DNA of 64,000 nucleotides, from the NCBI GenBank assembly GCA_027013145.1, contig JALUXX010000012.1, positions 1-64,000 of the forward strand. The letters are read 5' to 3'. Source of the DNA: Gammaproteobacteria bacterium (GTDB lineage: Bacteria; Pseudomonadota; Gammaproteobacteria; 21-64-14). A model generated the notes under the pieces. It ran no database searches, was not told the DNA's origin, and was given only the letters and a program-made list of their open reading frames with translations. Shown piece by piece: positions 18,469 to 36,793 of the stretch; within the stretch, counting starts at the first letter, position 1, and the number at the start of each line of letters is the position of its first letter. A program made the position numbers and the translations under genes.

Positions 18469-18680
18469 TCCGACCCCAAGTGCGCGACCACCCCGGCCCC
18501 GCTATGGTAGCCGCAGAGGGGGAGGGGCCGGGAAGCACAGGGGTCGGGCTCGGAGTCGCCGCCCGCGAAAAAATGTCGGAAGGCCCCGCCACCGTATAAT
18601 GGATAATGGGTGTCGACTCCGGCCCGAGCCACCGTGGCCCTGGAGTTTCACCCCGCCACCAAGCTACCGGAGGCACCATC

Positions 18681-35897: not shown

Positions 35898-35979
35898 GGG
35901 GACAGAGTCGGTACGCCTCGTGCTGCGCGGGGCAGCGGGGGGACAGAGTCGGTACGCCTCGTGCTGCGCGGGGCAGCGG
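35898..35979. repeat. Tandem 41-bp repeats of the MITE left end
   Basis: Copies beginning GGGGACAGAGTC at 35898 and 35939 repeat with a 41-bp step and lead into GGGGTCAGAGTC at 35980, the left end of the complete element. Each unit contains GGTACGCCTCGTGCTGCGCG or a near copy. They look like partial duplications of the element's terminal segment. Confidence 0.75.
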
Positions 35980-36136
35980 GGGGTCAGAGTCGGCACGCCC
36001 CGTGCGGCGCGGGGCCCCCCGGTTTCCTCCCGCGCGTCCCGACTCCGACCCCGCGCGGACGAGGGGTCGGAGTCAGCGCCCGGAGGATGGCGTGGCGGGA
36101 TCCCGCCGCGGCCTTGGGGGCGATGACTCTGACCCC
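35980..36136. mobile_element. MITE/REP-like element, copy A
   Basis: A 157-bp element bounded by a 12-bp perfect inverted repeat (GGGGTCAGAGTC and GACTCTGACCCC). An internal hairpin uses the related arms GACTCCGACCCC (36041) and GGGGTCGGAGTC (36063). A very similar copy lies at 36604-36759. It has no coding capacity, so it would need a transposase in trans; the ends resemble sequences often seen around REP-associated (Y1) transposase genes. Confidence 0.7.
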
Positions 36137-36244
36137 GATGACCACGCTGACCCCGGTCACCACGAGGCCGGGCCGACACGAACACGGCGCCGCGCGGGCA
36201 GCTCGGGATCCAGGTTCGTATGTGATACATGAGGAGTATTCTAT

Positions 36245-36574
36245 ATGTTACTTACTAAGTTACGGTTTTCTGTTTTGCTCGCGACGCTGGCCCTAGCCGG
36301 CTGCGCCGTTCCGGCCAGCGGTGAAGCGGAACTGAACGTCGCCGTGCCCCCGCCACCGGCGCGGGTCGAGGTCGTCGGCGTCGCACCCTTCCCCGGCGCC
36401 GTCTGGATCCGTGGTCACTGGATCCGGCGCGGCGACGACTGGGTGTGGATCAAGGGCTACTGGGCGCGGCGCCCGGTCCCCTATGCGCGTTGGATTCCCG
36501 GCCACTGGGTCCTGCGCGGTTGGGGGTGGCACCGCCACTGGCACTGGGTTCCGGGCCACTGGCGGGAATGGTGA
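36245..36574 (+). CDS. Small YXWXPGHW-repeat lipoprotein
   Basis: A 109-residue protein with a lipoprotein signal (helix FSVLLATLALAGC with lipobox LAGC). The mature part carries repeated GHW/GYW modules (AVWIRGHWIRRGDDWVWIKG, then YARWIPGHWVLRGWGW and WVPGHWREW), the YXWXPGHW repeat family found in envelope lipoproteins of proteobacteria. Function unknown. The first 60 bases and the region before it are lower in GC. The gene is bracketed by two MITE-like elements (35980-36136 and 36604-36759). Confidence 0.85.
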   Translation: MLLTKLRFSVLLATLALAGCAVPASGEAELNVAVPPPPARVEVVGVAPFPGAVWIRGHWIRRGDDWVWIKGYWARRPVPYARWIPGHWVLRGWGWHRHWHWVPGHWREW

Positions 36575-36603
36575 GCCGCGACTCGCGCATCGACGGGCGG
36601 TCC

Positions 36604-36759
36604 GGCGTCAGAGTCGGCACGTCGACGTACAGCGCGCGGCCCCGCGGTTTCCTCCCGCGCGTCCCGACTCCGACCCACCGAGCCCAAGGGGTCGGAGTCA
36701 GCGCCCGGGATGACGTGGCGGGATCCCGCCGCGGCCTTGGAGGCGGTGACTCTGACCCC
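36604..36759. mobile_element. MITE/REP-like element, copy B
   Basis: A 156-bp near-copy of the element at 35980-36136. Its ends are GGCGTCAGAGTC (one mismatch) and GACTCTGACCCC, with the same internal GACTCCGACCC...GGGGTCGGAGTC hairpin and the shared segment GGATCCCGCCGCGGCCTTGG. Together with copy A it frames the lipoprotein gene. Confidence 0.7.
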
Positions 36760-36793
36760 GGTGACCTACCCCGGTGACCACGGATCACCGCGC

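Follow-up and report, generated by a model that had tools for sequence, protein, structure and literature searches.

The TIR repeats of TIRtrons are described, in the passages of Di Nocera 2013 (PMC3733652) that deal with them, as sequences of moderate copy number with partly self-complementary, GGGGWSAS-type ends. They occur as singles, dimers, and groups or clusters, and are tied to Y1 tyrosine transposases that are kin to RAYT and belong to the GGGGWSAS-ended TIRYT/TIRtron class. This class largely corresponds to TnpAY1 subclass 2.1 (PMC6006769).

Our results reveal a family of hairpin repeats that resembles the TIR repeats of TIRtrons in these respects. Two inverted dimers of the family, copies A and B, flank a small lipoprotein gene in the window, which is the 64,000-nt stretch of gammaproteobacterial DNA that we analyzed. 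It is probable that A and B are non-autonomous TIR repeats whose multiplication was driven in trans by a TIRYT-type enzyme, and that they lie beside a resident lipoprotein gene. What we observed directly is the family, its architecture and stem pairing, the identity of its ends with those of TIRYTs, a junction stutter common to both, the lack of target-site duplications (TSDs), and a lipoprotein gene in the orthologous position in the only genus-mate. From these sequence features we infer that a TIRYT protein would be the mover of the units; the same conditional standing applies to which TIRYT this would be and to whether the units may still move. The features of the window are as follows.

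18546..18625 (+): another, degenerate member of the family (39.9 bits, E 8.5e-6)
35898..35979 (+): left 41 nt of the element (GGGGACAGAGTC...), present as two identical tandem copies that run into A
35980..36136 (+): copy A of the repeat, 157 bp, in which two palindromes of ~73 bp form an inverted dimer
35980..36052 (-): 73-bp palindromic unit of type II, left half of A, with the motif GGAGGAAA beside the 5' stem
36063..36136 (+): 74-bp palindromic unit of type I, right half of A
36129..36164 (+): tandem stutter at the right junction of A, 18 bp x2, made of CTGACCCC plus 10 nt of flank
36245..36574 (+): lipoprotein gene with WXXGXW repeats, 109 aa (PF12779, E 9e-6)
36604..36759 (+): copy B of the repeat, 156 bp, likewise an inverted dimer, with one mismatch in its left end
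36604..36677 (-): 74-bp palindromic unit of type II, left half of B
36688..36759 (+): 72-bp palindromic unit of type I, right half of B
36744..36779 (+): tandem stutter at the right junction of B, 13 bp x2.6

An earlier note on this DNA had described two copies of 156 to 157 bp on either side of the lipoprotein gene. A search within the genome confirmed them as direct copies with 88% identity over their full length (E 2e-50). The 12-bp terminal inverted repeats that the note assigned to them are exact in A (GGGGTCAGAGTC/GACTCTGACCCC) and at the right end of B, whereas the left end of B, GGCGTCAGAGTC, differs from the repeat at one position. The basic unit is not the 157-bp element, however, but a palindrome of about 73 bp; A and B are each composed of two different palindromes in inverted orientation, separated by a 10-bp spacer. 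Folding of the palindromic units is better than that of dinucleotide shuffles (z -2.3 to -5.9). A and B are one another's closest relatives, with 88% identity compared with at most 77% for the remaining full-length copies, and this similarity suggests sibling insertions or a local duplication.

A covariance-model search of the genome's contigs found approximately 60 distinct units of the family, which occur singly, in inverted pairs, and in clusters. The model was built on 43 units and returned 121 match rows, most places being scored on both strands. Units are 72 to 74 bp long, with a 67-bp variant on contig C29. The two unit types alternate: of 26 oriented pairs of neighbors separated by under 60 nt, 21 are inverted, and the same 26-nt spacer is seen on C11, C16, and C36. 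In the window, the family occupies extragenic positions. This layout of two inverted unit types with recurring spacers, arranged in extragenic clusters and lacking TSDs, is like that of the REPINs and BIMEs of RAYT (TnpA-REP). Unlike those elements, the aligned units of the family carry neither GTAG nor CGTC at the foot of the hairpin, and GTAG is likewise missing there from flanks and ends; its 73-bp units are longer than typical REPs, and its copies are fewer than in most such families.

The outer stem of the units is maintained by pairing. In columns 1-19 with 57-75, 95.2% of cells are paired, compared with 35-50% after a slide of one to three columns. Both sides of the stem have changed in 45 cells against a shuffle mean of 20, with compensatory change at columns 13/63, 14/62, and 18/58. 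Given that A follows a stop codon and B is located where two genes converge, an argument can be made that the palindromes are maintained mainly as RNA elements, such as 3' hairpins, terminators, or mRNA stabilizers, which spread by recombination and duplication with no transposase; A and B could then be a local duplication. Yet a DNA hairpin recognized by a transposase would conserve pairing too, and an Rfam search with the units returned no match. Moreover, the units are dispersed over many contigs and have ends in common with transposase TIRs, so that maintenance mainly as RNA elements appears improbable.

In addition, the copies had been called MITE-like. Like bacterial DDE MITEs, the family is short, non-coding, and dispersed, and the 12-bp inverted ends would suit classic MITEs derived from a DDE-type insertion sequence whose terminal inverted repeats read GGGGTCAGAGTC. 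Against such an origin, which we consider unlikely, stands the lack of TSDs: at the unit ends, duplications of 3-9 nt did not rise above chance, and 2-nt identity was seen 8 times with 4 expected. No matching DDE transposase was found, and the half-sites examined, among those on an incomplete list for the whole genome, lie in or beside palindromic units, with none bounding a larger element. Finally, the layout of inverted dimers and clusters with conserved spacers is REP-like rather than MITE-like, and the same class of ends bounds Y1 transposase genes. What survives of the earlier label is that A and B are non-autonomous hairpin repeats, but they are of the REP/REPIN-like kind, most likely Y1 (HUH) TIR repeats, with a basic unit of 73 bp.

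The reading of A and B as TIR repeats draws on the unit ends, GGGGTC[AG]GA, which match the terminal inverted repeats found at tyrosine transposase genes of the Y1 (HUH) type. We sampled 29 TIRYT or RAYT-like genes from across the class, including one from this genome. The motif GGGG[AT]C[AG]G[AT] occurs no more than 200 nt upstream of 22 of them (0.039 expected) and at both ends of 16, and 12 genes have the longer GGGGTC[AG]GAG (0.019 expected). Two TIRYT genes (L294 and L295) have GGGGTCGGAGTGATTTAAT at both ends, and a further one (L299) is preceded, at a distance of 72 nt, by the exact 12-mer GGGGTCGGAGTC. Unit ends of the forms GGGGTCAG and GGGGACAG fit the GGGGWSAS motif. The commoner variant, GGGGTCGG, which accounts for most ends of the family, departs from that motif at position 7, yet it also bounds the TIRYTs L294, L295, and L299.

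This genome has five Y1_Tnp genes, one of the IS605 type and four RAYT-like. Recognizable inverted ends were found on three of the RAYT-like genes: GGGGACAGATTTATTT (C11:208880), GGGGACAGTATACC (C16:247218), and GGGTCGGTGACAA (C11:323658). The earlier note had proposed a search of the genome for a transposase flanked by the ends of A and B. The same end class does bound Y1 genes, but no TIRYT in this genome has exact GGGGTC[AG]GAGTC ends, its own TIRYT ends being related but different. The family may therefore be an orphan, or it may depend on an enzyme whose choice of ends is relaxed, and our claim concerns the kind of repeat, not membership in a specific TIRtron. Two further features set the family apart from TIRtron repeats, namely a 73-bp unit with a stem of ~19 bp and the stuttered junctions described below. 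The palindromic stems are longer than most TIRs that flank TIRYT genes, which is a point against the TIRYT reading. When two of the RAYT-like proteins were scanned, they scored 75.9 and 67.1 against NF047646, below the NCBIfam cut-off of 80, and in Pfam, Y1_Tnp alone was detected in them, with no HTH domain; they are thus candidate members of TnpAY1 subclass 2.1. Near similar palindromes in other genomes, a transposase was present at 1 of 80 loci within the stretch examined, with no enrichment. We also considered the IS605-type tnpA/tnpB pair (L042, C3:106255) as mobilizer and rejected it, as no motif ends were found near the pair. This pair is located 3.4 kb from a three-unit palindrome cluster near a contig end.

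Both the palindromes and the TIRYTs carry stuttered junctions, in which 6-8 terminal nt together with flanking sequence are tandemly repeated outside the end. These were found at 17 of 58 unit ends (0.04 at random positions) and at 13 of 65 TIRYT ends (0.02 at random positions); one TIRYT locus was counted twice among the 65, and its removal leaves 12 of 64. Long tandems were seen at 5 of the 58 unit ends and 10 of the 65 TIRYT ends, compared with 0.001-0.003 at random positions. The clearest stutter surrounds a single unit at C11:259149-259221, where perfect 17-mers are present in 6.0 copies on the left and 4.1 on the right.

L059 3055-3156 and 3215-3284: 17-mer arrays around the single unit at C11:259149, each repeat consisting of the unit's terminal nucleotides plus flank

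Because the stutter is common to unit ends and TIRYT ends, it provides a second link between palindromes and TIRYTs that is separate from end sequence. A family of hairpin repeats is thus tied to the little-studied TIRYT transposases by common end sequences as well as by junction scars. PMC3733652 notes that, in REP clusters, REPs can be reiterated in tandem together with the DNA that flanks them, and its passages on such reiteration contain no description that we found of the short junction form. It is conceivable, though doubtful, that the TIRYT reaction itself leaves the stutter (6-8 terminal nt with ~7-13 nt of flank) as its footprint; repeated nicking and re-copying across the junction of element and flank would then generate the tandem. 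If so, TIRYT activity would leave a readable scar unlike those of known transposases. To our knowledge, no experiment has yet demonstrated that TIRYTs are mobile, and the stuttered junctions offer a concrete feature to test. In the mechanism that we favor, a TIRYT would recognize the single-stranded hairpin of a unit in trans, and units would be copied into new intergenic sites with no target-site duplication. A and B would have landed to the left and right of a lipoprotein gene that was already resident and did not travel along.

The family itself appears to be specific to this genome. It is absent from the only genus-mate, G001 (best match E 0.59), where no direct insertion polymorphism can be read. 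A search of a collection of papers for the exact string GGGGTCAGAGTC and its complements returned unrelated matches only, and one for GGGGACAGA/TCTGTCCCC gave nothing relevant. We best read the A/B family as a new, genome-specific TIR-repeat family of a known kind. Related palindromes occur in three other members of the class (G058, G035, and G076; loci L255-L263), some of them only 31 bp long (GGGGTCGGAGTCG-AAGTG-CGACTCCGACCCC). Among these loci the interior differs in length from genome to genome, but the end is conserved.

It had been proposed that the whole of 35980-36759 could move as a composite non-autonomous transposon, with the 157-bp copies as its ends and a lower-GC lipoprotein gene as its cargo. 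Similar direct copies around one gene, each the other's closest relative, would be expected of such a unit. The gene itself does not fit this proposal. It is single-copy in the genome and its GC content is ordinary (68.8%, the 34th percentile of the window); AT richness is confined to a stretch before and over the gene start (36190-36330, 56.7% GC, 2nd percentile). Other copies of the family cluster with no such gene among them, and the TSDs that could mark a transposon are lacking here as well. Most directly, in G001, a decayed lipoprotein gene with in-frame stops occupies the same convergent position beside an orthologous GGDEF/EAL gene (61-63% identity). No repeat half-sites were found near it, the nearest weak match lying ~6.8 kb away. 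The earlier note held that a lipoprotein gene present at this spot regardless of the repeats would refute the composite unit, and the one informative relative shows such a gene, in decayed form. On the evidence of this single relative, the place of the lipoprotein gene predates the repeats or is independent of them. A composite transposon is accordingly very improbable, and the gene is most likely a resident and not mobile cargo. An apparent gene-carrying mobile unit thus resolves into a resident gene and repeats.

Comparison of the two genomes also bears on the insertion sites. G001 lacks a counterpart of the DUF1501 gene that precedes A, so the empty site of A is not readable there. The B site corresponds to a short intergenic stretch in G001, consistent with insertion, with flanks too diverged to place the exact join. 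As direct repeats, A and B could delete the lipoprotein gene by recombination. The encoded protein is like the PF12779 WXXGXW-repeat lipoproteins in having a lipobox-like signal as well as the repeats, and it scores 32.8 against the NCBIfam model lipo_BcpO, below the cut-off of 80. In G001, the decayed gene (L081 2496-2675) adjoins genes for an ArsR-like regulator and CusCBA-like proteins.
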